NCBI GenBank assembly: GCA_017454915.1
Contig: JAFTCC010000064.1
Coordinates: 1 to 64,000 of the forward strand
Source: Paludibacteraceae bacterium
GTDB lineage: Bacteria; Bacteroidota; Bacteroidia; Bacteroidales; Paludibacteraceae
Direction of reading: 5' to 3'
DNA: 64,000 bases
The translations under genes were made by a program, and so were the position numbers. The notes below the pieces were generated by a model. The model made no database searches, was not told the DNA's origin, and saw nothing but the letters and a program-made list of their open reading frames with translations. Shown one piece after another: positions 4,868 through 54,023 of the stretch. Positions within the stretch are counted from its first letter, which is position 1. The number at the start of each line of letters is the position of its first letter.

Positions 4868-4947
4868 AGATAGAAAAAAGTTTCCAAACTCCGCAAAACT
4901 ATGCTCCAAACATCATTATTTCAACGACTAACAGCAAATTTACCCAA

Positions 4948-5083
4948 CTAGAAAAACTAGCCCAACTAGAATTACTAGAATTACTAGCCAAACTAGAAAA
5001 ACTAGAATTACTAGAAAAACTAAAATTACTAGAAAAACTAGCCAAACTAGAAAAACTAGCCAAACTAGAAAAACTAGCCAAAC
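4948..5083. repeat. CTAG-rich tandem array
   Basis: An array built from 8-9-bp words such as AAACTAGCC, AAAACTAG and ATTACTAG; about 14 CTAG tetranucleotides occur in 136 bp. Similar arrays lie near 16870-16912, 17627-17665 and 19948-20012. The array lies just beyond the tRNA terminator. The open frame it creates on the minus strand (Ser/Ala/Phe repeats) is an artefact of the repeat. Confidence 0.85.
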
Positions 5084-5087
5084 ACAA

Positions 5088-5120
5088 AAAGGCGAGCACT
5101 TTTTTCAAGTGTTCGCCTTT
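5088..5120 (-). terminator. Intrinsic terminator of the tRNA-Pro gene
   Basis: Arms at 5088-5101 and 5107-5120 pair over 14 positions with one A-C mismatch on the minus strand. On that strand the hairpin is followed by TTTTTGTG. It lies 9 bp beyond the 3' end of the tRNA. Confidence 0.8.
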
Positions 5121-5128
5121 CGCTTCAG

Positions 5129-5202
5129 TCGGGATGACAGGATTTGAACCTGCGACAACACGCCCCCCAGACGTGGACTCTACCGGGCTGAGCTACATCC
5201 CG
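5129..5202 (-). tRNA. tRNA-Pro (anticodon GGG)
   Basis: Read on the minus strand, the 74-nt gene starts CGGGATG and ends CATCCCG-A, giving a perfect 7-bp acceptor stem and discriminator A. The anticodon arm is CACGT-CTGGGGG-GCGTG, so the 7-base loop has T33, anticodon GGG and G37, as in proline tRNAs. The T arm contains GGTTCAAATCC. The 3' CCA is not encoded. A Bacteroidota promoter precedes it and a terminator follows, so it is an independent single-tRNA transcript. Confidence 0.95.
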
Positions 5203-12500: not shown

Positions 12501-15500
12501 CCGCTGACGCTCAAGAGCAGCTCAGGCTCATGGAAGTTCAACTGCGCCACATTGGGCTCGACATACTATCTGCAGTCTGGAAGCAAGAAATTGTATATTG
12601 CCACAACCGCCGCCGAAGGCACCGCATGGACGATAGCCGTGGATTCTGAAACAGGCGACGCCACCATATCCGCTGATGACATGTCAGGCTACGACCTTGT
12701 GTATAATCCGTCAAGCCCGCGCTTCGCCTGCTACTCCAGCAGCCAGACCGAGCCGCAGCTCTACCGCAAAAACGGCACCGTGAGCGTCACGGTATCGTCA
12801 GGCACGGTTTCCTACAGCACCGACCTTGGCGACTGCGGCACCGACCCCGTAATACGCATTAACGAGGGACAATGGATAACATCGTCCAGTGGCCAGACCG
12901 TAAGGTCAGACACTATAGTAGGCTCACTGAAGAACTTCACGAAGGCGTCAGAACTGTCTGTGGTCAGCAGCAACGAGCACTTCACCGCCACGGTGCAAAA
13001 GAAAGGCACCGGCAACAACCCGGCGATAGCGCTTGTCGTGGAATACACTCCAGTGGCCGCCAACATCACCGAGTCGGCGGACATAACCATCACCGCCACT
13101 AACGCCACCGATGGCGAAGTTACAAAGACCATCCGCGTCCTCGGCCGCTCGCTGCCTGACGAGTTCGTGATTATCAGCCTCAAAAACGGTAAGTGGTACG
13201 CCGTGCCGGCCAACATGAGCAGCGAGGGCGTTCACGACGGCATCGTGGTAGTGCCTAATGCCGAACTCACACTCGTGCCTGTGGCACCGTCCATCACCAT
13301 CTACTCGCACAGCGCTGTCGATGCGTCACGCTATACCGGCAGCGGCAACCTCTCGCGCCTCGCCGGCAACGGCAACAAGTGCCTCTGGGCCACCACGGAA
13401 ACAGGACAGAGCGGAATACGCAACCTCTCGACGCTCGCCGCTTCGGCTGACGCACACTATGAGTGGAAACTCGCCACAACTGACGGCACGGACTATAAGA
13501 TTACCCTGCCGGCAAACGCTGAAACGGTATCAGGGCGGCAACTGGCCAACAACAACCTCAACCAGTACGGCTACCTCAAGTCGGAGTGCACATTCCTCAT
13601 CCTGCCGGTAGGCTGCTCGTCGAAGCCCACCAACGTCGATGTCAGCGCAAAGCGTGTTGACGCCACTTTCTCGTGGAACAGCAACGCCAGCGAAATGGTC
13701 ATCAACATCTACGAGAAGTCAGCGCCCACCGTGCTCGTCAAGACAGCGACTGTAACAGAGTCGCCCGCAACGGTAACAGGCCTGAGCGAACTCACCGAAT
13801 ATGTGTTCACCCTCGTGCCTGACGGCTCCGCCGACTGCTCCGTGAGCGGTGAGTTCACCACCACGGGTCCGACTATCGACATCGTGGAATGGATGGAGGA
13901 AGCCATCATCATACAGGTTGACAAAGATGAAGCCCTGCACCCGAAGGTTCTCTTCGCCGGTGAGGAGGAGCACGGCGTTGACCACATAGCCAGCGAGCTG
14001 TTCTTCAGCAAATACTTCGAGGGCGAAGGCTCAATGAAACTGCTTGCCGTCTATAACGGCACGCCCAACGACATCAGCCTCGAGGGCTACGAAATCCGCG
14101 AGCGAGGCTGCAACAGCAGCAATGCCGTCAAATCGGATTCCGACAATCCGCGCTACGACCTGAGCGTGCTCGGCTCAATCAAGGCCGGGCAGGAAATCAT
14201 ACTATTCTCGCGCCCGCTGGCATCAGAAACAGGCGTGTATGCCTGCTCCGGAACATTCCTTGACGGAGTGGCGGCGAAGAGCGGAGCCGGCGAGAACCCC
14301 CGCTGGATACAGTGCGAAACAGGCAACGAATGGGGCTTCCCCAAGATGCAGTTCAGCGGCAACGACGCCATGCTGCTCATGAAGGACGGCGCAATTCTTG
14401 ACGTGTTCGGCGCGCTGACAGACGCGGCTGGCGAACCCGTGTCGCCGCCTGAAGAAAAGAACTGCCGAAGCGAGTATTCATGGCTTGGCACCGTCAAGAA
14501 CATGGACTACGGCAAGACCGGAGCCGACTTCTCGGATTACACAGGCACCACCGATGACGAATTTGAGGCATTCTGCGCTGCCAACTCAATCGACGTGTCG
14601 AACGAATACCTCGATATGTACACCGCGCGCTGCGTGCTCTACCGCAACAACGACGTCACCAGCGGTGAAGACGCATATTCATCCAACCTCAACGACTTCA
14701 CGTCACTTGAAACTGAATGGTACGGACGCTCGCTCTGCCTCAACGGACCTGTAACGGGCGGACCGACTTGCCACTCCTACATCGAACTCGGCGAATTCGA
14801 CTTCGACCGCTACTACCGCACTTATAGCGAACCGACAATGGTTGAGTTGGAAAAAAGCGTATGGAACTCCGAAGAACACCTCTACAAGATTGACGTGCCA
14901 GGCCTCGTGAAGTACTCGTGCCTTGACATGCGCCTGCAACTCACACCGCCTGACGACACCGAGACAGTGCTGACCGAGACGCACAACCAAGTGCCTATCA
15001 TAGTTCCAGATAACAGACTGACCACCGACACATTGTTCACACAAGTTGTTAGGAGCCCGGAAATCATAGGTGAAGGTACTCAGTATTCAGCCAGCGTTGA
15101 ACGCTGCAAAACATGTAATGTTGTGGTACTGAGCGATGCGTCACTGACCAAGGCGGCTGACAACGCGGCAACCGATGTTGACGAGGTTTACAACCTTAAG
15201 GTATATCCGCGCGGCAGACTGGTTATTCCGTCAGGAACTAACTACCATGTTAACAGTCTTGCGTTCCGCGTACAGGAAGACACGATATCAACCGCAGACA
15301 TCAAGGGTAACCTGAAAATCAAAGGTACCAACCACGCACTTGCTGAACCTTTGACCAAGAAGTCTGTATATCTTGACATACGTATCAACCCGACCAACTG
15401 GCACTACATCACACTGCCATTCGACTGCAACGTTGACGATATAACATACGTTGACGGAACATCACTCAAACTGGGAACCGACTACCTGCTCAAGTGGTAC

Positions 15501-16787
15501 GACGGTGCATACCGCGCAGAGAACAAGACTGGCGGCTGGACAATGGTTGAGGCAGGCTCAACACTTCAGAAAGGTAAAGGCTACATCGTGGCATTCCCGG
15601 GCAGCGGCAAGGTTAAACACGAACTGCGCTTCCCGATGAGTTCACTTGCCGTTGACGACGAAAAAGAAGCCAAGACAGTCGGCGAACTCTACGCTTACGG
15701 AGCTAACAAGAGTGAAGAAGAACTCAAATGGAACCACCGCGGATGGAACATGATAGGCAACCCCTACATGAACTACTACAGCGGCTCAAGCGTAACCACC
15801 CCACTTCTACAAGGCACACTCGAAAAAGAAATGAGCGATAAAGGAAACTGGACAGGACACTGGGTACTCAACACCGAAAGCGGCAAGAACCTGCGCTACG
15901 TAGTGGCACCGTATAACCACGGATGGGGAGCTTATACCCAACGCACCATAGGCAACAACCTCGAGCCCTTCACCTGCTACTTCGTTCAAATAGCCGGCGA
16001 CGACCCAGCAACAGCTCTTGGCATCAACTTCACCACTGCCAACTTGCATAACTACTCAGCAGCACCGGCTTACCTCCGCGCTCCAGAAGTAGGAAGCGAG
16101 CAAATCGTATGGTTCGGCGTCAAACTCACCAACGACAAGAATGAGAGCGATGAAACCACACTCCTCATCTCCAACAACTTCACCAACGGCTACGACGCTA
16201 TGGACGACCTTATAAAGATGCGTGGTGACTACTACAAGTACTACACGAACCCCGTCATAGCCAGCCGCAACGACGAAGGCGAAATGGCGTTCAACGCTCT
16301 GCCTGACAATAGCGCGGCAGCAGGAGTACCGCTCAACTACTTCGCCGGCAAACAAGGTGAATACGTGATCGCCATTAACAACGAATACCCGACAGACGGA
16401 GTAGAAGAAGCCTACCTGCACGACATCAACGAAGGCGTATGGCACAACCTGTTGCTCGGTGAATACCGCTTCGTATCTGCAAAAGGCGACAACAAGACAC
16501 GATTCGAACTCGTCGTTAATGTCAACCGCAAGCCACAGAGCACTACAGCAATAGAAGACATCGACTACGTCAACGGCGTGCGCCTGATAACCGACGGACA
16601 ACGCATCTACATCAACGGCATCGCCGAAGGAGCGTCAGTTCACGTCTTCTACGCCGACGGTAAACTCCTGAGCCGCAACAACAACGTCAAGGGCGGACAA
16701 CTCGCCATCGACGCTCCGGCTACCGGCGTTTACACCGTAAGGGTAAGCGGCACGCAGAACGCAATGCTCAAATGCGTCATTAAATAA
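6510..16787 (+). CDS. Giant modular T9SS-secreted surface protein (Ig-like BIG2, InlB-type and other repeats)
   Basis: A 3425-residue extracellular protein of unknown binding target. Its N-terminus has a long 50-residue pre-region, then a hydrophobic core and likely cleavage near AWS-QTT (residue 70). Modules in order: beta-sandwich (about 73-225); two BIG2 Ig-like domains (about 224-311, 314-400; TVTWSSSNTSVATVS); a chitobiase C-terminal-like repeat (about 404-475; ATIRYTTNGTNPT); InlB-like modules (about 487-573, 829-911, 1184-1270, 1440-1595; FAGWSTDS...LYAVY); a second beta-sandwich (about 585-700); an FN3-like module (about 710-830); two related DYLIAYSS/QYLIASG modules; a third BIG2 (about 1092-1180); a lamin-tail-like region near 2495; and a T9SS type A sorting domain at the end (about 3349-3425). 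No catalytic motif was recognised; adhesin or glycan-binding scaffold is inference. Module positions are approximate. A/T-richer stretches coincide with particular modules. Confidence 0.9.
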   Translation: MKANLLSSTLRGWGRALRGLLTPATYRTAGGTHVTTGGTGASFSHTARHTLRALLVLATLALTTTTAWSQTTVFSDDFSNCTATNTGTAITTRTGWSAFTYVYQHFGSARFGTSKKSGSITTSTLGATANGKTVTLTFHAACWNTDGGNLNVTVSGGGTISGNTTISGSTYKTTSTSGAVNWSGATTFTCTISNCTSSTTVTFASSKKRFIIDDVLITVPGGTVDVTGVSLNPTSKTFTCPTGTQTITATVSPSDASNKTVTWSSSNTSVATVSSAGVVTAVSAGTATITATATNGTEATTDDKTATCSVTVQDTKVTSLSLSSSTLSLTCGGSTSTLTATATPSGACNKNVTWSSSNTSVATVSTAGVVTPVAAGTANITATAADGSGKTATCNVTVNSAGTCATPTFSVAAGTYTSVQSVTLACATSGATIRYTTNGTNPTATTGTVYSGAITVSSTQTIKAIAYKSCYNNSSVASAAYTINLPSYTVKWYVGNDSGTAEKSETVVSGNTSTPPTVADGALGGTCSAKVFMGWTETWIGSTGTNTVPSDLSLWTTPPTITSDRTFYAVFATETTTPGSEEEVSNELTFSGTNGEVYTSYTVTTGVTISATKGGTNDPKFYTSDNTWRFYNGGTCTVTSTVGNITKIEFTASAIYLGNPDSGTYSNKVWTGDASSVTFSNTGTTKLTKVKVTYKTGTPSTTTYSDYITSCAAPTCTAAPTVATGSYSGLSATGVTLTNTGGITSLGTGTCSITSYGWVYGTSADPAIGGTGVTQIEKGMSYTTVNTSFGNSTAITGLVPGTTYHVRTYATNGAGTGYGDDYTFTTTAYTVTLNAGSGTVTGSPLSTVNGTVTLLPATPTSACSGSPFNWTFAGWSTDSIAANTTTEPSLIASGSYTPTGNTILYAVYTRTVTTTGGSGNYELVESDLGTAWAGDYLIAYSSTIFADGRVNGTGTGALGAQNTYVNPGSNLSGKTVAATWGDTYNVTLEEITSGSNTYVLKTKDGYYNYQASNSNGLASTNAKATAANHPISVTFNSSSDIDLALTYGTVFHYNTQGYFRFYKDGGQANVYLYKKNSGTSTTYWQTAPVCELIDVTGVTLNKNTLTVECGDEDDTLEATVAPATATDKTVTWSSSDTSVATVDSEGKVTAVSPGTATITATATNGTAATTDDFSATCTVTVPSYTITLHLGAGTMTGMTTVNNVHFKTLTGSPCAEVDLGTATPSAACSALGWSFAGWATDSIAAGTTSSVTTVSSVTPTANTNLYAVYTSVVDDGGGTAEYTKVTSTDDITSGQYLIASGTTVLDGSQTDLGAANMSITVTITNDKITATSATEAAEFTINATAKTIKSASGKYINRTSGTSGGAMNILDSESAHESLTISSGNFVAEAANGHELRYNSSAYMFRYYASGQTAIQLYKKGGGGTTYYESDPNCSGEASVTYDANGATSGTAPVDSNNPYSVGDEVTVLGKGDLVKTGYAFGGWRMHNATTGALKQPGATFNIATNTTLYAQWVEQYTVTLIDNGLTTTAEVNSGSTYTLPAAGTSVCDGAVFKGWHLGEYTDHLTGASANPGVVASNEVTVTANVTYVAVYQYAEGGTGTAGTYTLDYTTDISGSYTIDYGSEVTVDASDGSEWVVKAYPNAGMQVNSSKDASIKLPDCPSDISKVVITCGTYKNKITFGDSDQDDDVVTASSASATQTLNIPAGHTTGYLYSTSGASVLATIVVTYGGGTTIYTSKPICCTKPDPKLSIAADVTTFISSKTDPQVINLTVAGGNGQDTIWTVVDKNGTNRKSWLTEVEGGATLTIPKNQTTNTITVKITQDDKELDESTVCGGADSVKIIVRARYNITFKFKNSKGNWETYSTLTDLLDGEEYTLPDISENFDCESGHAFAGWASAQDATAVEKAPLSTDIVTAGKTWYAVFSHPASTTTVTRDKYVLVTAASQLVNNNIYVLAVASKGKGLAEMTTSSDIGPLGNVNMAADGSYLTFEDSESIMPLTLKSSSGSWKFNCATLGSTYYLQSGSKKLYIATTAAEGTAWTIAVDSETGDATISADDMSGYDLVYNPSSPRFACYSSSQTEPQLYRKNGTVSVTVSSGTVSYSTDLGDCGTDPVIRINEGQWITSSSGQTVRSDTIVGSLKNFTKASELSVVSSNEHFTATVQKKGTGNNPAIALVVEYTPVAANITESADITITATNATDGEVTKTIRVLGRSLPDEFVIISLKNGKWYAVPANMSSEGVHDGIVVVPNAELTLVPVAPSITIYSHSAVDASRYTGSGNLSRLAGNGNKCLWATTETGQSGIRNLSTLAASADAHYEWKLATTDGTDYKITLPANAETVSGRQLANNNLNQYGYLKSECTFLILPVGCSSKPTNVDVSAKRVDATFSWNSNASEMVINIYEKSAPTVLVKTATVTESPATVTGLSELTEYVFTLVPDGSADCSVSGEFTTTGPTIDIVEWMEEAIIIQVDKDEALHPKVLFAGEEEHGVDHIASELFFSKYFEGEGSMKLLAVYNGTPNDISLEGYEIRERGCNSSNAVKSDSDNPRYDLSVLGSIKAGQEIILFSRPLASETGVYACSGTFLDGVAAKSGAGENPRWIQCETGNEWGFPKMQFSGNDAMLLMKDGAILDVFGALTDAAGEPVSPPEEKNCRSEYSWLGTVKNMDYGKTGADFSDYTGTTDDEFEAFCAANSIDVSNEYLDMYTARCVLYRNNDVTSGEDAYSSNLNDFTSLETEWYGRSLCLNGPVTGGPTCHSYIELGEFDFDRYYRTYSEPTMVELEKSVWNSEEHLYKIDVPGLVKYSCLDMRLQLTPPDDTETVLTETHNQVPIIVPDNRLTTDTLFTQVVRSPEIIGEGTQYSASVERCKTCNVVVLSDASLTKAADNAATDVDEVYNLKVYPRGRLVIPSGTNYHVNSLAFRVQEDTISTADIKGNLKIKGTNHALAEPLTKKSVYLDIRINPTNWHYITLPFDCNVDDITYVDGTSLKLGTDYLLKWYDGAYRAENKTGGWTMVEAGSTLQKGKGYIVAFPGSGKVKHELRFPMSSLAVDDEKEAKTVGELYAYGANKSEEELKWNHRGWNMIGNPYMNYYSGSSVTTPLLQGTLEKEMSDKGNWTGHWVLNTESGKNLRYVVAPYNHGWGAYTQRTIGNNLEPFTCYFVQIAGDDPATALGINFTTANLHNYSAAPAYLRAPEVGSEQIVWFGVKLTNDKNESDETTLLISNNFTNGYDAMDDLIKMRGDYYKYYTNPVIASRNDEGEMAFNALPDNSAAAGVPLNYFAGKQGEYVIAINNEYPTDGVEEAYLHDINEGVWHNLLLGEYRFVSAKGDNKTRFELVVNVNRKPQSTTAIEDIDYVNGVRLITDGQRIYINGIAEGASVHVFYADGKLLSRNNNVKGGQLAIDAPATGVYTVRVSGTQNAMLKCVIK

Positions 16788-17674: not shown

Positions 17675-19939
17675 CTACAACGCCTCATACATTGCTGCAT
17701 CGACAAGAAAATGCAGTTGGGCTTGGTCGCTGGGAAAGTCAGTATGGGGGAAAAACATTTCTGCTGTGCTGTCAAATAGTATCTTAAACTTAAGCAGCAC
17801 TCTCACGGGGTCAGCCACTCGATTGGCATTTCCTGCAGCCGTGAGCCGGTATGCCTTGTGGTAGAATGCTATGGCACGGTTAGTGTCGCGTGCAGCAAGC
17901 GCGAGATGCCCGGCAATGAGCAGCGTCTCAGGCGTCTCATCAATGGCGAGCAGTTCCTCCGCACTCTCTTTTGCCTGCTCATAGCGTTGGAGCCGAAGCT
18001 GACTCAACGTCATGTAGTAGTGAGCCCACACAGCAGGTGCTGCATCATCGGCTAAACCGGCAAGATATTGCTCGCAGCTGCCGAGCGACTGCGCATATTC
18101 GCCTATGCGGTAATATGACTCAGCAGCCGTTTGAGCAAGGTCGTCAACGGGCAGAAACATATCGCACATCTGCTCATAGACGCTTATCGCCATCGCATGG
18201 TTGTCGAGATGATGATGGCACAGCACCATGCGCTTCATCGTCCATGCGTCCTGCGGTTGCTGAAGATCAGCGCGCTCGTAAAACGACAAAGCCTCACGGA
18301 ATTTCTTGACCTGCTCAAAAAGATAACCCAACTGCTGAAGCAAGGAAGAATCAGTATCAGCGTCTATCAGACGCGCAAAAGATGTCACATCAACAGGCGG
18401 CGTGAGGTTGACAAAACTGAAAGATATGTCCATCAGGTTCTGATTGAAGTCGGTGAGAACGCTCTGCAATATGGGCTTGAGGTATTCGAGACACTGATGC
18501 AGGCTATCAACATCAAACGGATTGAGGGTAAGCGCATCAACGCCAATCAGAGCGTGGCACGATGGTTCACCCTCGCGCTCACCGCGCTTGACGGCATAAA
18601 GTGTCATAAATCGGAAAAAGTCGTGGATATAATACGTCATCTCCGACGACTTGTCAATCATTTCCAATTCAGCACGACCGTCCATCACATCGCCCATCTG
18701 CTCCTTCACCTGCTGTTTAATGCCGTTTATGACATTCTGCGGCAGCCGGGTAAGCTGAAGCACGATGGATTTGTAGTGCGTTTCAGGACAAAACGACTGT
18801 TGCATAATCATCTGCAACAAAGTTTTGTTTGAGCTGTCAGCAAAAACATTGTTGAACTCCGGATCTTCAGTATAGAAAGGTGTGAACCAGCGGTACTCGC
18901 TATTCCAATACGGCATGGAAACCTGACTGCGGAACGAAGAATAATGAAGGTCATAACCCTCTTTCGCTATCTTTATCACATCCTCCATCTTGTCAGCAAG
19001 CACACTCTCTATATTATTCATCCACACAGGATTACCTTCATGCGCAACATCGTCGCGTTTTTCTGCTCCTTGGGCCTTGTCATTGCGCATTGCCATGCGT
19101 ATTGCCGAACCCAAAGTTTTGTCCATCTCGTCAGCCATGCGCGGCCCTGACAGTCCGAAACATATCATTCTGAAAGCGTGCATAAGATTGTCATAGCACT
19201 CCTCTACCTGCTCCAGCAGTTTCATAGTGCCGCTGAAATGCGGTGTAAGGCGCAACACGTCGAAATTGCACACGAGGTTAAACGCCACGCCCGCTAAAGC
19301 GCGCGGCATGAGGTCGCCGTGATAGGTCGCAATCTCTACCAGCATGTCGAAAGTGCGGGGATTAAAATAGCGCAATGAGTTGACAGTGAGCGCACTGACA
19401 AGCGTCTTACGGGCAGCGATGTGACACGACGGGTCGTTGATTATCGCCGCAGCGCCCTCATATTGCACCTGCGAGAGCTCGGTGCCAAAAGCTAAATCCT
19501 CATAAGCCTCACGCAGCGCGTCATCAAAAGCCTTGTGCCTATTATAGTCCTCACCGGCATCAAGCAAAGTGTCGTGGCACTGCTGCCACTGCTCGGAGGT
19601 CATGTAACCACGACGCGCCTGCAACATAATATCACGCAACAGCGGGGAACGGGGGTCGGTTAGCATCACGCGCCATGTCAGACGGCGGACCACATCCACA
19701 AGGTCATACTTCAACGAGCGTGTAACGTCGTCGCGCGAAGGGTCTGAAACGCCCTCCGACAACGCACGAAGCAGCATTCGGTAGTTGTTGTCTATGACGC
19801 TCAACCGGTCATAGAGGTCACTAACCGGAACACGGCACTGCAATGCGGCATCTTCCACAAGGCTATATGCAAGCGTTATGCCGCGCTTGAGCGACACATC
19901 GGCAAGAAAAACTATGTCAGGATATATGTTCTTATTCAT
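17675..19939 (-). CDS. Large TPR-containing protein, function unknown
   Basis: A 754-residue cytoplasmic protein; no signal peptide or membrane segment is evident. The N-terminal two thirds are helical and unassigned, with a phrase (NKNIYPDIVFLADVSLKRG) I do not recognise from any characterised family. The C-terminal part (about 540-715) holds tetratricopeptide repeats with the usual pattern of small and aromatic residues (LGYLFEQVKKFREALSFYER, AESYYRIGEYAQSLGSCEQY, AGHLALAARDTNRAIAFYHK), implying a protein-protein interaction role. It is the most distal gene of a minus-strand trio after rfbC and a Crp/Fnr regulator, separated from rfbC by a CTAG array. Function is unknown. Confidence 0.85.
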   Translation of the reverse strand: MNKNIYPDIVFLADVSLKRGITLAYSLVEDAALQCRVPVSDLYDRLSVIDNNYRMLLRALSEGVSDPSRDDVTRSLKYDLVDVVRRLTWRVMLTDPRSPLLRDIMLQARRGYMTSEQWQQCHDTLLDAGEDYNRHKAFDDALREAYEDLAFGTELSQVQYEGAAAIINDPSCHIAARKTLVSALTVNSLRYFNPRTFDMLVEIATYHGDLMPRALAGVAFNLVCNFDVLRLTPHFSGTMKLLEQVEECYDNLMHAFRMICFGLSGPRMADEMDKTLGSAIRMAMRNDKAQGAEKRDDVAHEGNPVWMNNIESVLADKMEDVIKIAKEGYDLHYSSFRSQVSMPYWNSEYRWFTPFYTEDPEFNNVFADSSNKTLLQMIMQQSFCPETHYKSIVLQLTRLPQNVINGIKQQVKEQMGDVMDGRAELEMIDKSSEMTYYIHDFFRFMTLYAVKRGEREGEPSCHALIGVDALTLNPFDVDSLHQCLEYLKPILQSVLTDFNQNLMDISFSFVNLTPPVDVTSFARLIDADTDSSLLQQLGYLFEQVKKFREALSFYERADLQQPQDAWTMKRMVLCHHHLDNHAMAISVYEQMCDMFLPVDDLAQTAAESYYRIGEYAQSLGSCEQYLAGLADDAAPAVWAHYYMTLSQLRLQRYEQAKESAEELLAIDETPETLLIAGHLALAARDTNRAIAFYHKAYRLTAAGNANRVADPVRVLLKFKILFDSTAEMFFPHTDFPSDQAQLHFLVDAAMYEAL

Positions 19940-19947
19940 TGACCAAG

Positions 19948-20012
19948 TTCAAAAAAAACTAGAAAAACTAGCCAAACTAGAAAAACTAGCCAAACTAGAA
20001 AAACTAGTTTTA
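19948..20012. repeat. CTAG-rich tandem array
   Basis: A regular array alternating AAAAACTAG and CCAAACTAG, with 6 CTAG words in about 65 bp. It fills the space between the TPR gene start and the rfbC stop codon (20010-20012) and matches the array at 4948-5083 nearly word for word. Confidence 0.85.
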
Positions 20013-20552
20013 TAGTTTAAGCTCTTCAAATGCCGGATGCCGGGTGTCTTTGTCAGACAATATCCACTTGTCGCGCGGCACGCGCCAGTCTATGCCGAGC
20101 AAGGCGTCGTCAAGCCTAATGCCGGCTTCTGCCTCGGGGTGATAAAAATTGTCGCACTTATAGGCGAAAACCGCAGTGTCAGAAAGCACCGAAAAGCCGT
20201 GGGCGAAGCCTCGGGGGATGAAAAACTGGCGGTGGTTTTCTGCCGTGAGTTCCACTGAATGCCACTGACCATAGGTGGGAGAGCTGGGACGAATGTCAAC
20301 TGCCACATCAAGCACGGAACCGGACAGACAGGTAACAAGTTTAGCTTGCGCCCAATCGCCGCACTGGAAATGCAGACCGCGAACTACTCCGTAGGACGAA
20401 CACGACTGGTTGTCCTGAACAAATTCGGCTGTTATGCCGGCTGCAAAATAACGCTCACGGTTATATGTCTCACAAAAATAGCCCCGCGAATCATTAAACA
20501 GCCGCGGGGTTATGATTTTCAATCCTTCAATAGGGGTTGTTTCTATTGTCAT
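20010..20552 (-). CDS. rfbC: dTDP-4-dehydrorhamnose 3,5-epimerase
   Basis: This 180-residue enzyme epimerises dTDP-4-keto-6-deoxyglucose at C3 and C5, the third step of dTDP-L-rhamnose synthesis for surface polysaccharides. Length and cupin fold match the RmlC family. Catalytic His is H61 in VRGLHFQ; the acid Tyr is Y131 in AYKCDNFYHPE; the substrate phosphate/nucleotide loop SRGYFCETYN is near residue 22. The rmlA, rmlB and rmlD partners are not in this window, so the rhamnose operon is split. It sits downstream of a Crp/Fnr-type regulator on the same strand, 61 bp away. Confidence 0.95.
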   Translation of the reverse strand: MTIETTPIEGLKIITPRLFNDSRGYFCETYNRERYFAAGITAEFVQDNQSCSSYGVVRGLHFQCGDWAQAKLVTCLSGSVLDVAVDIRPSSPTYGQWHSVELTAENHRQFFIPRGFAHGFSVLSDTAVFAYKCDNFYHPEAEAGIRLDDALLGIDWRVPRDKWILSDKDTRHPAFEELKL

Positions 20553-29920: not shown

Positions 29921-30604
29921 ATGGTGCTGTTCGATTTCATAGACAGCTATCTGTTCCCGAGCGTGTGCCACGTTTGTGGCAGACAATTGGTAGCCGGCGA
30001 AGACCGGGTATGCCTCCACTGCCTTGACGCATTGCCACGCACCGACTTTCTCAACCGCAGCGACAATCCGCTTCTCCAACGCTATTCACGACAACCAAAT
30101 ATAGTGAGCGCCACGGCATTGCTGCACTACGGCAACGACACGCGCCTGCTCGTGCATGACCTCAAATACCACAACTTCCCGCAACTCGGCAACACACTTG
30201 GAACTCTAATGGCTGACGAAGGCCTGCAGCACGGCATCTTCAGCGTCGATTTGCTCGTGCCTGTTCCGCTGCACTGGTTAAGGAGACTGAGCAGAGGATA
30301 CAACCAGAGCCTAAAACTTTGTGAGGGAATAAGCCGGAGGACAGGTACAGAAATCAGCACCGAAAACCTTGTTCGTACACGTAATAACCGCTCACAAACA
30401 GCACTGTCACACACCGATAGACAGAAAAACAAACAAGGACTTTTCAGACTTAAGCATCCCGAAATGTGGAACGGAAAGCACATCATGATAATTGATGACG
30501 TGTTCACCACCGGAGCCACCATAGAAGCGTGCATCCACGCCATAAGCCAACAAACAAGCGATACCAAAATCAGCATCTACACCCTTGCATACGCCGGTGT
30601 ATAG
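29921..30604 (+). CDS. ComF family phosphoribosyltransferase-like protein
   Basis: A 227-residue ComF-type protein. It begins with a CxxC zinc motif pair (CHVCGRQLVAGEDRVCLHC, residues 16-34) and ends with a PRTase domain whose PRPP loop is IMIIDDVFTTGATIEAC (about 188-204); the flexible-loop segment RGYNQSLKLCEGI is also typical. ComF is needed for DNA uptake in competent bacteria; in Bacteroidales its role is not known. It starts 3 bp after the cyclase stop codon and ends the run of tightly spaced genes begun at murC. REP DNA follows. Confidence 0.93.
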   Translation: MVLFDFIDSYLFPSVCHVCGRQLVAGEDRVCLHCLDALPRTDFLNRSDNPLLQRYSRQPNIVSATALLHYGNDTRLLVHDLKYHNFPQLGNTLGTLMADEGLQHGIFSVDLLVPVPLHWLRRLSRGYNQSLKLCEGISRRTGTEISTENLVRTRNNRSQTALSHTDRQKNKQGLFRLKHPEMWNGKHIMIIDDVFTTGATIEACIHAISQQTSDTKISIYTLAYAGV

Positions 30605-30790
30605 CAACTAATATTAGGTCATTTTACCCCTTAAGCCGTGGATAAACAGCCCCACAGGGGCGGAATAAATATAGCCGTGGGTGAAGCGAAGCGGAACCCA
30701 CGGAACACGGAAAACACCAATTTTATTAGCCCCGTAGGGGCGGCACAAATATAGCCGTGGATAAAACCCACGGAACACAGAAACCATCCA

Positions 30791-30983
30791 TTTTATTAGC
30801 CCCGTAGGGGCGGCACAGAAAAGCAAAAAGGTTGTGACGCCGCTAACGCGGCTTGAATATGATGGTGCGATGCGTACCGCGGGTTACGTTCGCTGACGCT
30901 CACTTCACCCACGGCTAACATTGTGTCACCGCTAACGCGGTTTTCGACGCAAACAACAAATCTATTCCAGCCCCACAGGGGCG
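30791..30983 (+). repeat. 193-bp direct repeat, copy A
   Basis: From TTTTATTAGCCCCG to CCCCACAGGGGCG this segment is nearly identical to 31113-31305; by eye only a few substitutions are present (for example CTGACGCTCACTTCAC against CTGGCGCTCACTGCAC). It comprises two palindromes flanking a CGCTAACGCG-rich core. The offset is 322 bp, so recombination between copies would delete or duplicate 322 bp. Confidence 0.85.
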
Positions 30984-31112
30984 GCACAAAAATAGCCGTG
31001 GGAGAAAACCCACAGAACACGGAAACCACCCATTTTATTAGCCCCGTAGGGGCGGAACATAATTAGCCGTGGGTGAAGCGAAGCGGAACCCACGGAACAC
31101 AGAAAACACCAA

Positions 31113-31305
31113 TTTTATTAGCCCCGTAGGGGCGGCACAGAAAAGCAAAAAGGTTGTGACGCCGCTAACGCGGCTTGAATATGATGGTGCGATGCGTACC
31201 GCGGGTTACGTTCGCTGGCGCTCACTGCACCCACGGCTAACATTGTGTCACCGCTAACGCGGTTTTCGACGCAAACAACAAATCTATTCCAGCCCCACAG
31301 GGGCG
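31113..31305 (+). repeat. 193-bp direct repeat, copy B
   Basis: Second copy of the repeat at 30791-30983, in the same orientation, differing at a few positions. Together the copies form a composite REP unit larger than the simple palindromes, suggesting a recent local duplication. Confidence 0.85.
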
Positions 31306-31447
31306 AAACAAATATAGCCGTGGGTGAAAAACCACGGGACACGGAAAAAACCAATTTTATTTAGCCCCACAGGGGCGGCATAAATGCAAAAAAAAATTAC
31401 GCCCCGAAGCATTATGCTTGAAAGTATAATGGAAAAACATAAAATAT

Positions 31448-31478
31448 TTTGCGAAAACAAAAAAAGTCATTATATTTG
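31448..31478 (+). promoter_or_regulatory. Promoter of leader RNA copy 1
   Basis: TTTG at 31448-31451, 19 bp, then TATATTTG at 31471-31478, a full match to the Bacteroidota consensus. Transcription should start near 31485. Confidence 0.85.
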
Positions 31479-31484
31479 CAAAAA

Positions 31485-31708
31485 ATAATACGCTATGACG
31501 TAGATACGATACAAATAGAACGACAGATATAAATAAAGCGTTAGCTTTGTTCTCACTTAGTAAAAATCGCCAATTTTTATAACGCAGATGAGAAGTAAAG
31601 TTCAACGCTCACATCACACTTGATGTGGGCTTTACTTTTTGTTCATCTGCAGCGGTGTTTGGCGATACCTTTACTAAGTGGACTAAAAAGTTTGGTCCAC
31701 TTTTTTTA
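31485..31708 (+). ncRNA. Structured leader RNA with terminator, copy 1
   Basis: About 224 nt between a consensus promoter and an intrinsic terminator. Nested helices: P1 CTTAGTAAA/TTTACTAAG (31556-31564 with 31670-31678), P2 ATCGCCAA/TTGGCGAT (31566-31573 with 31659-31666), P3 GCAGATGA/TCATCTGC (31584-31591 with 31643-31650), P4 AAGTAAAG/CTTTACTT (31593-31600 with 31630-31637), P5 CACATC/GATGTG (31610-31615 with 31622-31627). The P1 3' strand overlaps the terminator 5' arm by 3 nt. A close relative lies at 52852-53099. Similarity continues beyond the terminator toward the start codon of the next gene, favouring a cis-acting attenuator over a free sRNA. It may belong to a catalogued Bacteroidales RNA motif; I cannot confirm which. 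Confidence 0.8.
31676..31707 (+). terminator. Intrinsic terminator ending leader RNA copy 1
   Basis: AAGTGGAC (31676-31683) pairs with GTCCACTT (31695-31702), followed by a run of seven T from 31701. It lies 106 bp before the start codon of the first downstream gene, so read-through is required for that gene unless a second promoter exists. Confidence 0.85.
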
Positions 31709-31813
31709 TGCCATAGCGCGACAACGGACCGGTGACACGCCGAAAAACCACAACAGAGTAGGCACCAACACATTTCCTCCGCAAGTGGCGGCGGACAAAC
31801 CGCCACACAACAC

Positions 31814-32521
31814 ATGAAAAAACTATTTTCACTTTTCGCAGCACTGCTCATAGGTGGTGCTGTATGCTTGGCAGAAGATGTAGAGCTCACATCGGGCGAC
31901 GTGCATTTCTTCAAAGATCCCGCTAACTACGCAATTTTGGAGATTGACTGGTCAAAAACACATGTAGTGGAATTCGGAGCCAACAACAAGGTTAAGAACG
32001 ACTTGGGCAGCATTGACGAGTTCAACCGCTCGCAAGGCGAAGACTGGGTTCGCGACTGGCCCGCTGTTCAGGCTTCGGTGCTACTGTCAAACACTATGAA
32101 GAAATTTTTCTTCAACAAAGCCAACAAGAAAGGCATGCATATCGTAGCCCCGCAGCAGGTATGGGATGCATACAACAACGGCACTCTGGTAGGGAAAAAC
32201 CGCACCTCAACCGAGAAAAACTACTACCTGATAGACCCTGCCACAGCACAATACAAGATTGTAGTACACATAGACCTCGTTGACATGGGCAACACAGGAG
32301 CCTCTATTGTGTTCGGCGGCGGACTGGCCAGCAAGGCAGGCGGAGCAAAAATAATGGGGTACATTGACTGCATCGACCTGCGGACGAACAAGAGCGCAGC
32401 ACAATTCGTAATCAACGACACACGCGGTGAAGGTGGCTGGACTCAAGCCATTAGGCTCGGCAACGTCATCGCACAATGCCTCGGCGTGGAAGTCATGAAA
32501 ATTATTAAGAAAACAAAATAG
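31814..32521 (+). CDS. Exported protein of unknown function, first gene after leader RNA copy 1
   Basis: A 235-residue protein with a signal peptide (MKKLFSLFAALLIGGAVCLA, cleavage before EDVELT). I do not recognise the family with certainty. The mature part has alternating beta and helical segments, with a glycine-rich stretch (VFGGGLASKAGGAKIMGYIDCIDLRTN) of the kind seen in envelope proteins of the DUF4410/curli-assembly-like type; this resemblance is weak. It starts at ATG 31814 and is followed 18 bp later by the first of three paralogues on the same strand, so it likely leads an operon controlled by the structured leader upstream. Confidence 0.85.
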   Translation: MKKLFSLFAALLIGGAVCLAEDVELTSGDVHFFKDPANYAILEIDWSKTHVVEFGANNKVKNDLGSIDEFNRSQGEDWVRDWPAVQASVLLSNTMKKFFFNKANKKGMHIVAPQQVWDAYNNGTLVGKNRTSTEKNYYLIDPATAQYKIVVHIDLVDMGNTGASIVFGGGLASKAGGAKIMGYIDCIDLRTNKSAAQFVINDTRGEGGWTQAIRLGNVIAQCLGVEVMKIIKKTK

Positions 32522-32539
32522 ACACAAACAGGTAAAAAT

Positions 32540-33274
32540 ATGAGAAAAGCAGCGTCCTTTTTCTTTGTTTTCTTTTTTGCCTTCGCCTCTGCAGTCACAG
32601 CACAGGATGTGTTAGTCATGAGAGATGGGAACAGCGTGAACGGCAAGGTGATTGAGATTTCTGATGTTAGTGTCAAATACCAATCCCAAACTGCAGACGC
32701 ACAAACTATAACAATAAACGCCGAAAACATTGAAAGCATAGTTTTCAGCAACGGCACCGTGAAAGTCTTTACTCATGCTCAGACTGAACAATCATTAGCC
32801 GCATCACCTCAAAAGATTGCTTACATAGACAAGTTCAGCGACCACTACCTGATGGGGGACAAACGCATGAACGAGGATGAGTACATGAAATTCCTGAAGC
32901 AGCATTGCCCCGAAGCGTACAAAAGCCACGAAAGCGGCAAAAAGTTGGCCAAGGCTGGCTGGGTATGTTTAGGCATAGGGGGCGGCATAGGTGTAGTGGG
33001 AAGCGTATTGTGGGGAGCATATTTCAACAGTGCCGAAGGCTGGTACTGGGGCGACTACAAAAGAGGAAGCAAAGAAAAGGTACTGGCAGGCGTGGCGCTC
33101 ACGTCTGCCGGAACAGCAATACTTACTGTCAGCGTGCCATTGCTGACAGTGGGATACGCCAGAAAGAACAAGTCGCACGTAATATATAACAACTATTGCG
33201 CGCGGCAAAACACTCCTGTCGCTCTCACACTCAAGGCAAAGACTGACGGAATGGCGGTAGCAATAAATTTCTAA
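32540..33274 (+). CDS. Paralogue 1 of a tandem trio of exported membrane proteins
   Basis: A 244-residue protein of unknown function. After a signal peptide (cleaved near AVTAQ-DVL) comes a small beta domain (VMRDGNSVNGKVIEISDVSVKYQ ... VFSNGTVKVF, about 20-78), a common Bacteroidales module without known role. A charged linker (DKFSDHYLMGDKRMNEDEYMKFLKQHCPEAY) leads to two hydrophobic segments (WVCLGIGGGIGVVGSVLWGAY and LTSAGTAILTVSVPLLTVGY) and a short basic/polar tail. The C-terminal half is almost identical to paralogue 2, while the N-terminal domain differs clearly from both neighbours. It lies 18 bp after the preceding exported-protein gene. Confidence 0.88.
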   Translation: MRKAASFFFVFFFAFASAVTAQDVLVMRDGNSVNGKVIEISDVSVKYQSQTADAQTITINAENIESIVFSNGTVKVFTHAQTEQSLAASPQKIAYIDKFSDHYLMGDKRMNEDEYMKFLKQHCPEAYKSHESGKKLAKAGWVCLGIGGGIGVVGSVLWGAYFNSAEGWYWGDYKRGSKEKVLAGVALTSAGTAILTVSVPLLTVGYARKNKSHVIYNNYCARQNTPVALTLKAKTDGMAVAINF

Positions 33275-33305
33275 CAGATAACCAACTTTCTAATTCTAAA
33301 CAAAT

Positions 33306-34046
33306 ATGAGCAAGAGGACTCTAACAACAGCAGTTTCATTGCTCCTGTGTGCGCTATACATAGCCGCACAGGATGTCATCATCACGCTTGACGAGAAGCG
33401 CATAGAGGCCAAAATCACCGAGGTGTCGGACACAGAAATCAAATACCGCGACCCCAATATCCCTGGCGGACCGCAGTTCGTAATGGGAGTGGACAAACTC
33501 AATACCATTATCTACAGCAACGGCACCGTGAAAGTCTTTACTCATGCTCAGACTGAACAACCAGCAGCCGCCTCACCGCAAAAGACTGTTTACATAGACA
33601 AGTTCAGCGACCACTACCTGATGGGTGACAAACGCATGAACGAGGATGAGTACATGAAATTCCTGAAGCAGCATTGCCCCGAAGCATACAAAAGCCACGA
33701 AAGCGGCAAAAAGTTGGCTAAAGCGGGCTGGGTATGCTTAGGCACTGGCGCAGTCTTGGGCGTAGTGGGAAGTGCGCTGTGGGCAACATCTTACGATCAC
33801 AGTTACGGCGGAGCATGGATATGGGGTGAATATGATAAGCACCAAGGCAAAGGGCTGACCGGCGTGGTGTTCACGTCTGCCGGAGCCGCATTACTTACTA
33901 TCAGCGTGCCGCTGCTGGCAGTGGGATATGCCAGAAAGAACAAGTCGCACGTGATATATAACAACTATTGCGCGCGGCAAAACACTCCTGTCGCTCTCAC
34001 ACTCAAGGCAAAGACTGACGGAATGGCGGTAGCAATAAATTTCTAA
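33306..34046 (+). CDS. Paralogue 2 of the trio, apparently chimeric
   Basis: A 246-residue protein with the same architecture: signal peptide, beta module (ITLDEKRIEAKITEVSDTEIKYR), charged linker, two hydrophobic segments. Its first 77 residues match paralogue 3 (MSKRT-TTA-SLLLC-LYI-AQD, EVSDTEIKYRD), whereas everything after NGTVKVF matches paralogue 1, including a nearly identical 3' end of the gene. The switch falls in a stretch shared by all three (AGCAACGGCACCGTGAAAG, about 33516-33534), as expected from recombination or gene conversion. It was probably made by unequal exchange between its neighbours. Confidence 0.88.
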   Translation: MSKRTLTTAVSLLLCALYIAAQDVIITLDEKRIEAKITEVSDTEIKYRDPNIPGGPQFVMGVDKLNTIIYSNGTVKVFTHAQTEQPAAASPQKTVYIDKFSDHYLMGDKRMNEDEYMKFLKQHCPEAYKSHESGKKLAKAGWVCLGTGAVLGVVGSALWATSYDHSYGGAWIWGEYDKHQGKGLTGVVFTSAGAALLTISVPLLAVGYARKNKSHVIYNNYCARQNTPVALTLKAKTDGMAVAINF

Positions 34047-34077
34047 CATATAACCAACTTTCTAATCCTAAACGAAT

Positions 34078-34833
34078 ATGAGCAAGAGAACTTTTACAAC
34101 AGCAATTTCACTACTTCTGTGTGTGCTATACATAACCGCACAGGACATCATAGTCACGCGCGAGGAAAAGCGCATAGAGGCCAAAATCACCGAAGTGTCG
34201 GACACGGAAATCAAGTACCGTGACGCCAACAACCCTGACGGACCACTGTTTGTGATGGGTGTGGACAAAATCAGCACCATCATCTACAGCAACGGCACCG
34301 TGAAAGTCTTTGAGCAGGCGCAAGCACCTGCCATTAGCAGCCGCCCGCCCATGAGCGCACAATATCAGGCATCGCTCAACCGCGGACAGCAGACCCAGAT
34401 GGGCGGCACGGAAATGATAAGCCGCTATGACGAATACTACATAATGGGCAACGAACGCATGAACGAAGATCAGTACTTGCGCTTCGTCCAGCAAACATGC
34501 CCGGCAGCCTATGCAAGCTATCAGAAAGGCAAGAAACTCTGGGGCATGGGCTGGGGGTTCTTCGCAGCAAGCCTCGCATGCCTTGCCGGGGGCAGCACCA
34601 TGTACAGCATAGGCCGTAACGAAGGAACACCGGGACTGGCGATACCAGGCGCAGCACTGATTGGCGCAGGATCCGGATTCTTCTGTGCATCCATTCCTTG
34701 CATGGTAGTGGGAAAAATCAGAAAAGACAATTCTCACGAAATCTACAACTCCGCTTGCGTTAGAAAAAGCAACCCCTACTCGCTTAACATCGGTTACGGG
34801 GGCAACGGAGTCGGACTTGCCTTTGCATGGTAA
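34078..34833 (+). CDS. Paralogue 3 of the trio
   Basis: A 251-residue protein: signal peptide (cleaved near YITAQ-DII), the same beta module (VTREEKRIEAKITEVSDTEIKYRD), then a longer Gln/Ser-rich linker than its neighbours, a related charged motif (YDEYYIMGNERMNEDQYLRFVQQTCPAAY), and two hydrophobic segments (MGWGFFAASLACLAGGSTMY, ALIGAGSGFFCASIPCMVVG). The C-terminal half is more diverged than that of paralogues 1 and 2. The spacer before it (about 31 bp) is nearly the same as that before paralogue 2, so gene plus spacer were duplicated together. Function unknown. Confidence 0.88.
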   Translation: MSKRTFTTAISLLLCVLYITAQDIIVTREEKRIEAKITEVSDTEIKYRDANNPDGPLFVMGVDKISTIIYSNGTVKVFEQAQAPAISSRPPMSAQYQASLNRGQQTQMGGTEMISRYDEYYIMGNERMNEDQYLRFVQQTCPAAYASYQKGKKLWGMGWGFFAASLACLAGGSTMYSIGRNEGTPGLAIPGAALIGAGSGFFCASIPCMVVGKIRKDNSHEIYNSACVRKSNPYSLNIGYGGNGVGLAFAW

Positions 34834-52813: not shown

Positions 52814-52845
52814 TTTGGTGAAAACAAAAAATATGTGTATCTTTG
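52814..52845 (+). promoter_or_regulatory. Promoter of leader RNA copy 2
   Basis: TTTG at 52814-52817, 20 bp, TATCTTTG at 52838-52845; start near 52852. It plays the same role as the promoter at 31448-31478 for copy 1. Confidence 0.82.
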
Positions 52846-52851
52846 CGAAAA

Positions 52852-53099
52852 TAAAAACGAAAAAATATAAGACAATGACATAGAAAACGTGAAATAATAC
52901 AAATAAATACAGATTTAAGCGTTAGCTTTGTTCTCGCATTCTAAAAAATCGCCAATTTTTTACAACAAAAAATGCAGATGAGAAGTAAAGTTCAACGCTC
53001 ACATCTTTTCGATGTGGGCTTTACTTGTTAGTTCATCTGCAATGGTGTTTGGCGATACCTTTAGAATGTGGGCTTAAAAAAGTTTAGTCCACTTTTTTT
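52852..53099 (+). ncRNA. Structured leader RNA with terminator, copy 2
   Basis: About 248 nt with the same plan as copy 1. The core GCGTTAGCTTTGTTCTC, ATCGCCAATTTTT, GCAGATGAGAAGTAAAG, TTCAACGCTCACATC and TTTGGCGATACCTTT are identical. P1 here is CATTCTAAA (52937-52945) with TTTAGAATG (53060-53068): compared with copy 1, three base pairs have changed on both sides. The P5 loop differs (ttttc against acactt). The terminator keeps pairing through a G-U. Downstream similarity (AGAGTAG...CAC.AACAC..., TCCGCA) continues toward the start codon. The 525-bp gap 52677-53201 holds this element, its promoter, and a duplicated TGTTGAATCTGCAA near 52780-52807. Confidence 0.8.
53068..53099 (+). terminator. 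Intrinsic terminator ending leader RNA copy 2
   Basis: GTGGGC (53068-53073) pairs with GTCCAC (53087-53092), one pair being G-U, followed by T7. It ends 103 bp before the next start codon, almost the same as in copy 1 (106 bp). Confidence 0.82.
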
Positions 53100-53201
53100 A
53101 TGCCCAAAGGACTCGCAGTAAGGCGAAAAATGCGTCAATAGAGTAGCCACAAACACTTAATCCGCAGTAATGTGTTCTGCGTGAAAATAACACATAAAGT
53201 T

Positions 53202-54023
53202 ATGAAGAAAACACTTTTAACAATTTTTGCCCTGTTTATGGTGTTGCTGCCCATGACAGCGCAGATTTCAGAGGGTGAACCCAACTCAACCGTAATTCCT
53301 CGCACGGGAAACCGTCCGCAGGCTGGTGACTGGGGTATCTACATTGGCGGTTCTGTTCGCCAAGTGATGGATCTTGTCAATGCCCATAAGGATGCTGGCA
53401 GTATTTTCATCGGTGACGTTCCTGGCGAGGTTGTAGACGGCTATGACTCTAACAACAATTGGTGGGGGCTACCAATCCTTAACCTCAAGTACTATGTAAC
53501 CAATCAGTGGGAAGTCCGTTTGGGCTTCGAATTCGCCAGCAAAACCTTGTCGAACAAGTATAAACTGGAAATCGGAGGCGACGACATTAAACGCAACAAC
53601 CGTGAGAGCCAGAACTTCACGCGCTTCCTTCCAGGTTTCGCCTACCACTTCAGCACCAAGAACCTTCTTGATGTTTACCTCGGCGCACAAATGCCTATTG
53701 GTTGGGATTCTTATCGTTCAAAACAGAAAGAGGATGCTGGCGGCGACGTTACCTACACCCGCAACACCTGCACACAGGCTGTTATCGGCGGTGGCGTATT
53801 CATCGGTCTGCAGGCTTTCATTGCCGACCTTCCGCTTGCCATTGGCGTGGAACTGGGATATTCTGGCCTCGCAAAAATAGGCGGCAACATGAAGACCACA
53901 CAAGACTTAGGTGACGGCAAGGAAGTATTCTACAACGACAATCCGAACCTTAAAAAGGCAATTTCAACTTCTGCCGAATGGGGTGCAGACGCCGCTATAA
54001 CTTTCTCATATTTCTTCCACTAA
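53202..54023 (+). CDS. Outer-membrane beta-barrel protein, first gene after leader RNA copy 2
   Basis: A 273-residue protein. ATG 53202 (MKKTLLTIFALFMVLLPMTAQ) starts a clear signal peptide; an in-frame ATG 30 bp upstream would spoil it. The mature part has glycine-rich and aromatic alternating strands (WGIYIGGSVRQV, YYVTNQWEVRLGFEFASK, VYLGAQMPIGWDSYRS, VIGGGVFIGLQAFIADLPLAIGVELGYSG) and ends ITFSYFFH, consistent with an 8- to 10-strand outer-membrane barrel of the OmpA-like/PorT-like size class. Function unknown. It begins an operon with two lipoprotein genes (spacing 21 and 4 bp). Confidence 0.82.
   Translation: MKKTLLTIFALFMVLLPMTAQISEGEPNSTVIPRTGNRPQAGDWGIYIGGSVRQVMDLVNAHKDAGSIFIGDVPGEVVDGYDSNNNWWGLPILNLKYYVTNQWEVRLGFEFASKTLSNKYKLEIGGDDIKRNNRESQNFTRFLPGFAYHFSTKNLLDVYLGAQMPIGWDSYRSKQKEDAGGDVTYTRNTCTQAVIGGGVFIGLQAFIADLPLAIGVELGYSGLAKIGGNMKTTQDLGDGKEVFYNDNPNLKKAISTSAEWGADAAITFSYFFH

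Follow-up and report, generated by a model that had tools for sequence, protein, structure and literature searches.

The window, as we call the whole stretch of 64,000 nt analysed here, from a contig of a Paludibacteraceae bacterium, carries two copies of a structured leader element on the plus strand; a third, closely similar one is found at another place in the source genome. Copy 2 (52814-53201) extends from its promoter to the base before a gene start at 53202, and copy 1 occupies 31447-31813. Their parts, with the kind of evidence behind each in brackets, are as follows.

52814-52845, plus strand: Bacteroidota-type promoter of copy 2, -33 box TTTG at 52814-52817 and -7 box TATCTTTG at 52838-52845 (sequence)
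52875-52883, plus strand: mini-ORF ATG-ACA-TAG between promoter and element (sequence)
52918-52935, plus strand: segment a (AGCGTTAGCTTTGTTCTC), the 5' arm, partner of b in the alternative fold (a:b covariation)
52937-52945, plus strand: P1 5' strand (CATTCTAAA), partner 53060-53068 (covariation)
52949-52955, plus strand: P2 5' strand TCGCCAA, partner 53049-53055 (covariation)
flanking 52949-52955, plus strand: P5, a weak hairpin, AAAA..TTTT on either side of the P2 5' strand (25/10000 shuffles)
52974-52981, plus strand: P3 5' strand, partner 53032-53040 (covariation)
52980-52999, plus strand: segment b (GAGAAGTAAAGTTCAACGCT), partner of a or c (covariation)
52997-53019, plus strand: central hairpin H, GCTCACATC / GATGTGGGC, forming the upper part of b:c; its U.G wobble is conserved (covariation)
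53011-53026, plus strand: segment c (GATGTGGGCTTTACTT), partner of b or d (covariation)
53032-53040, plus strand: P3 3' strand (covariation)
53044-53059, plus strand: hairpin P4, GGT 53044-53046 with ACC 53057-53059, its loop displaying the P2 3' strand TTGGCGA 53049-53055
53060-53068, plus strand: P1 3' strand (TTTAGAATG) (covariation)
53068-53092, plus strand: local terminator hairpin GTGGGCTTAAAAAAGTTTAGTCCAC (fold, sequence)
53076-53092, plus strand: segment d, also the 3' strand of the local terminator hairpin
53093-53099, plus strand: U-tract (sequence)
53141-53146, plus strand: GAGTAG box of a second, lineage-restricted leader motif (sequence)
53202-54023, plus strand: first gene 3' of copy 2, encoding a 273-aa secreted protein
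31447-31707, plus strand: copy 1, promoter to U-tract (sequence comparison)
31537-31554, plus strand: segment a of copy 1
31556-31564 and 31670-31678, plus strand: P1 strands of copy 1 (CTTAGTAAA and TTTACTAAG)
31590-31609, plus strand: segment b of copy 1
31607-31630, plus strand: hairpin H of copy 1
31701-31707, plus strand: U-tract of copy 1
31814-34833, plus strand: array of four paralogous genes 3' of copy 1

The RNA of copy 2 would start near 52850. The 273-aa protein behind it is possibly a β-barrel, given a weak match to the outer-membrane family PF13505 (E 0.0021, below the Pfam cut-off), and the four-paralogue array behind copy 1 has no Pfam match. Repeats are found elsewhere in the window: clustered units that contain AGCCCCGTAGGGGCG hairpins (families D3, D7 and D9) at 11-221 and 30600-31400, one such cluster lying directly 5' of copy 1; 9-bp tandem repeats of the AACTAGAAA/GCCAAACTAG type at 4923-5095, adjoining a minus-strand tRNA gene (5129-5202), and at 19934-20025; and, at 6510-16787, a single ORF of 3425 aa with internal repeats of ~190 nt (family D4).

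Between the two copies, exactly three P1 pairs are changed on both sides (T-A to A-T, A-T to T-A and G-C to C-G), just as a reading from the sequence alone had proposed. The similarity that it described as picking up again 3' of the terminator is likewise present. Its near-equal distance from terminator to start codon holds in substance: measured from the U-tract to the start codon, the spacing is 106 nt in copy 1, as reported, and 102 rather than 103 nt in copy 2. Beyond the U-tract and shortly 5' of the start codon lies a second conserved leader motif, approximately CGGACT..GAGnAACCGAAAAnCCG.....GAGTAGG (53105-53150 and 31720-31765 in the window), which also occurs at other loci, including L029, L020, L019, L026, L064, L124 and L186; the GAGTAGG box accompanies 15 of 137 copies of the element, nearly all from the window's own family. 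Both window copies fold far better than their dinucleotide shuffles (z -7.3 and -7.9, with 0/200 shuffles as good). Two copies alone are nevertheless insufficient to prove selection, for which the covariation of homologues is needed.

Covariation across homologues, which had been set beforehand as the test of the structure, proved very strong. We used a partner-shuffle test, in which strands are cut by position and the pairing energy of true partners is compared with that of partners re-dealt among copies, such that co-variation and not mere conservation is sensed. In the main set of 31 non-redundant copies (<72% identity), none of 5000 shuffles matched the true partners for P1 (z -21.8), P2 (-13.9), P3 (-16.8), H (-9.2), the lower b:c stem (-5.9), P4 (-4.4), a:b (-11.5) or c:d (-9.3), whilst seven control pairings stayed at z -0.3 or above. 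The result was repeated in a held-out set of 19 copies, fetched after the idea had formed and <72% identical to the main set: all seven re-tested helices (P4 was not among them) beat every shuffle (for instance a:b at z -8.6 with 0/5000 shuffles, P3 at -10.8 and c:d at -9.0), and four controls were flat. P4 gave 0-11 of 10000 shuffles in a further test, and support for P5 is moderate (25 of 10000). Shuffling leaves some effect of relatedness, and the controls nevertheless remain flat. No pairing of a with d was found in either set; the 5' strands of P1 and P3 paired with each other at 20/5000 shuffles, and a candidate closing helix P0, joining the 5' end to the U-tract, was set aside as weakly supported (85/5000).

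Column counts in one alignment (A4) agree, with 97.4% of cells paired against 71.3% when shuffled and 35-44% when slid; double changes occur in 20 of 24 pairs, and all eight P1 pairs are changed on both sides. Fitting of the alignments relied on P1, P2 and H, a bias in favour of these helices that does not extend to a:b, c:d, P3, P4 or P5. A first RNAalifold consensus on the raw alignment had recovered H alone because P1-P3 are divergent. Furthermore, G.U pairs outnumber A.C mismatches both in P1-P3 (13 against 2) and in H (44 against 1), which implies that selection acts on the plus-strand RNA. The U.G wobble of H is kept in 28 of 33 copies; it sits where c:d would form a Watson-Crick pair, and would thereby help to balance the two folds.

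Comparison of the homologous sequences thus demonstrates covariation in a:b, in b:c (H together with its lower stem) and in c:d, in the bracing helices P1, P2, P3 and P4, and, more weakly, in P5. The structure-level selection proposed from two copies is thereby established, and the simple picture of a P1 helix followed by a terminator gives way to an alternative fold of four segments. Two pairings in this fold had gone unnoticed: a:b, joining the 5' arm to the left half of the hairpin, and c:d, joining the right half to the strand that precedes the U-tract. What had been taken for a nearly invariant unpaired core consists mostly of strands that pair in this alternative fold (a:b, c:d, P4 and P5), including the P4 strands GGGU..ACCU around the P2 3' strand.

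The element is far from being a peculiarity of one genome. With blastn, relatives were found in 22 of 120 related genomes; a covariance model built from 17 of these (R1; helices P1, P2 and H) matched 173 of 298 relatives (~58%), or 70 of 151 genera, and 29 of 296 genomes sampled from the phylum. A second model, R2, derived from 33 divergent copies, matched 41 of these 296, in several families and classes, and none of 149 Bacillota genomes. Deep scans counted 15 copies in the source genome and 3-44 in 19 others; Rikenellaceae bacterium SIG180 has nine. Blastn of the element gave no match in phages or plasmids, and a 17-mer DNA-pattern scan of genome contigs returned mostly chance sites, the two Bacteroidota matches that were inspected lacking the element. 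It is also seen on some viral-classed IMG/VR contigs (L213, L218, L204, L209, L219, L222, L208, L226 and L206), nearly always followed by co-directional genes, several of which encode lipoproteins. Twin copies occur as a tandem pair 5' of one gene, a pair 5' of near-identical genes, or a divergent pair (L144 2727-2871 and 2939-3072; L138 1096 and 2997; L143 1965 and 2672). The complete genome G392:C1 has several similar copies (31238, 1268234 and 4350466; L277, L278 and L280), two of them preceding near-identical proteins of 187-197 aa; these copies are probably recent, and suggest a recent duplication of leader and gene together.

A consistent relation to downstream genes, the second point to be checked across homologues, was likewise seen. 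Of 128 copies, 124 are followed by a first ORF that runs in the same direction, and so are all 49 non-redundant copies, at a median gap of ~100 nt, whereas the strand of the upstream gene is near random (69:56). For 101 of 137 copies there is a TAnnTTTG promoter box in the 150 nt upstream, and a run of at least four T follows the element in 46 of 50 non-redundant copies. As to which gene families follow the element, they are diverse: the 94 downstream proteins fall into 54 Pfam families, the commonest accounting for six, and include T9SS sorting domains, Lcl_C, BspA-type LRR, BACON, TM2, ECF sigma factors and DNA methylases. Most, however, appear to be secreted proteins or lipoproteins, with a signal peptide or lipobox, called by a simple rule, in 88 of 124 against 125 of 406 other ORFs at the same loci (Fisher p 4e-15). 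One genome group, belonging to a different family of the class, has downstream proteins that are mutually similar and, judged by their sequence features, look like SusC-type receptors. The proposal that the leader acts in cis on the operon behind it therefore stands as regards its fixed position; the leader would presumably control expression, and the idea of a single gene family or operon type is not borne out.

Taken together, the sharing of b and c among three covarying pairings, the U-tract, and a position between promoter box and co-directional gene strongly suggest attenuation. We consider it probable that the element is a cis-acting transcription attenuator, forming the 5' leader of the downstream gene and working through mutually exclusive helices. 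As the RNA is transcribed, the 5' arm a would pair with b first. Were a:b to hold, c would be free for d, and c:d, standing beside the U-tract, would serve as a terminator at which transcription stops; were c instead to capture b, with P3, P2 and P1 zipping up, d would be left without a partner and RNA polymerase would read on. P2 probably begins when the loops of hairpins P5 and P4 touch in a kissing contact, which could seed the conversion of the two hairpins into one long duplex.

Folding energetics are broadly consistent with this scheme. Folds of the growing transcript of both window copies form a:b first, then b:c with P3, then P2 and finally P1, under an energy model that ignores pseudoknots and kissing loops. 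The c:d pairing averages -17.7 kcal/mol, and 17 of 28 non-redundant copies have almost no local terminator hairpin; as a strong one exists in seven of the 28 only, window copy 1 among them, c:d emerges as the general terminator partner. Its loop is long for an intrinsic terminator (~50-60 nt), although P4 would bring its ends closer. An additional partner is open to d in the window's subfamily, namely the strand immediately 5' of it, with which it may form the local terminator. At equilibrium, both window copies fold P1-P3 and this local terminator together, so the on/off logic is less clear for this subfamily.

The choice between the two folds would most likely be set by a putative trans-acting signal that bears on refolding, be it an RNA-binding protein, a chaperone, or a ligand that binds the P2/P4/P5 element; no pathway common to the downstream genes points to its nature. 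Could the element be a riboswitch for a metabolite or second messenger, with P1, P2 and P4 as a pseudoknotted aptamer and c:d as its expression platform? We regard this as possible yet unlikely. The compact P1-P2-P4/P5 core with its conserved GAAA, GGGU and ACCU strands speaks in its favour, as do the many copies per genome 5' of unrelated, often surface-protein genes. Second-messenger riboswitches precede unrelated genes, often for surface proteins, in many copies per genome, and riboswitches of the signalling type need no common downstream pathway. However, when the strands of P4, P5, a:b and c:d are taken as paired, few conserved nucleotides are left; the helices vary freely in sequence, and the common downstream pathway expected of a metabolite riboswitch is lacking.

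Less probable is attenuation by a leader peptide, in which a ribosome on a tiny upstream ORF (ATG-NNN-stop) would decide whether a:b forms, as in trp attenuation or tetQ-type leaders. The helix logic is the same, and of 59 leaders in the window's own family 36 contain an ATG followed by 0-2 codons and a stop, where 15.0 would be expected and the highest count among 500 shuffles was 26; the context is often TTTGCCTATGNNNTAA, and each window copy has such a mini-ORF (52875-52883 and 31495-31503). Others are at L121, L122, L124 and L267; the mini-ORF has the look of a start-stop element. In other families, however, there is no clear enrichment (26 of 72 against 18.8), and the codon before the stop varies. 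With the ATG of the mini-ORF at a median distance of 41 nt upstream of a, a ribosome positioned at the stop would leave that segment uncovered, and many copies in other classes have their -7 box only ~21-25 nt upstream of a, which leaves no room for a mini-ORF. The element does not fit a trp-type leader-peptide attenuator, as no conserved leader ORF overlaps or abuts segment 1. Masking of a by a ribosome is thus disfavoured, and a protein, chaperone or ligand acting on refolding would in general be more likely than a ribosome at the mini-ORF.

It is very unlikely, in our view, that the element is an independent trans-acting small RNA that merely happens to lie 5' of genes: it does have its own promoter and U-tract, and a quarter of the copies (7/28) a strong local terminator hairpin, but a co-directional gene follows all 49 non-redundant copies at a median of 100 nt, and c:d complementarity is selected though most copies lack a local terminator. 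Least credible of all is a DNA-level element, such as a REP-like palindrome or a recombination or transposon site whose inverted repeats mimic RNA covariation, since, for all that the element is near-palindromic (hence a weak match of the model to the minus strand), multi-copy and at times in tandem, the lack of G.U preference expected of such palindromes is contradicted on the plus strand (13 G.U against 2 A.C in P1-P3), the U-tract stands on one side only, and promoter and gene keep a fixed orientation.

A cis-acting attenuator thus remains our preferred reading, and it invites a bolder one, to which we give somewhat less than even credence: that the element represents an undescribed, phylum-wide class of Bacteroidota attenuators, in which kissing-loop hairpins convert to one duplex, a single signal is shared, and the regulon takes in up to ~40 mostly secreted-protein genes per genome. 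Were this true, it would rank among the most copied cis-regulatory RNAs known in any phylum. Bacteroidota are dominant in the animal gut and in many soils and waters, and to our knowledge few of their cis-regulatory RNAs have been described; a leader present in ~58% of the related genomes searched, in up to 44 copies per genome 5' of genes for secreted or surface proteins, suggests that a large regulon lies hidden here. Should all copies answer to one signal, its discovery would account for the co-ordinated control of many surface proteins. The architecture yields precise predictions as to which strands to break and which compensating changes should rescue them, and the element could serve as a compact natural model in which to study co-transcriptional refolding, and possibly as a genetic part for use in gut bacteria.

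How does the element compare with known systems? Among Rfam 15 families, tRNA alone reaches its gathering threshold in the window and 20 diverse homologous loci, and a search of the element with E up to 10 gave nothing relevant. Structured RNAs already catalogued from the same phylum, namely Bacteroid-trp (RF01692), Bacteroidales-1 (RF01693), Bacteroides-1 (RF01694), Flavo-1 (RF01705) and 6S-Flavo (RF01685) (PMC2864571), do not match the window or the 20 loci at gathering score. The L20_leader (RF00558), likewise a pseudoknotted attenuator leader, was considered and rejected: its match is weak and partial (20.5 bits, E 0.16, against a cut-off of 58.7 bits), and the downstream genes do not encode ribosomal proteins. 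FopS RNAs of Bacteroides thetaiotaomicron, trans-acting molecules of ~65-70 nt, have one terminator hairpin each (PMC11697453); FopS/GibS are, like our element, a multi-copy Bacteroidota RNA family tied to surface-protein genes, but a small RNA of this type does not fit a multi-helix element of ~180-250 nt that lies in cis.

A metagenome-wide survey of the human microbiome lists 3161 candidate structured RNAs, including palindromic and 5'-UTR candidates from Bacteroidetes (PMC8040213), and some copies of the element could be among these entries; the passages of its text compared here describe no phylum-wide multi-copy attenuator of this kind. Nothing recognisable as the element appears in the available portions of work on structured 5' regions of F. 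psychrophilum and on the B. thetaiotaomicron transcriptome. Nor does any passage found in a flavobacterial transcriptome, in the work on FopS or in two surveys of motifs describe it; this search ran largely without subscription papers, preprints and supplements, and a prior description is possible.

The closest parallel lies with the trp/his-type attenuators, in which regions 1:2, 2:3 and 3:4 compete. The opposition of a:b and c:d to b:c resembles that of 1:2 and 3:4 to 2:3, with all three competing pairings of the element under selection, and both systems have four segments whose pairings exclude one another, the final pairing being formed beside a U-tract, between an upstream promoter and a co-directional downstream gene. 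Unlike these attenuators, the element has no phylum-wide leader peptide, precedes unrelated genes mostly for secreted proteins, and has long, mutually complementary loops (P1, P2 and P3) that carry hairpins of their own (P4 and P5).
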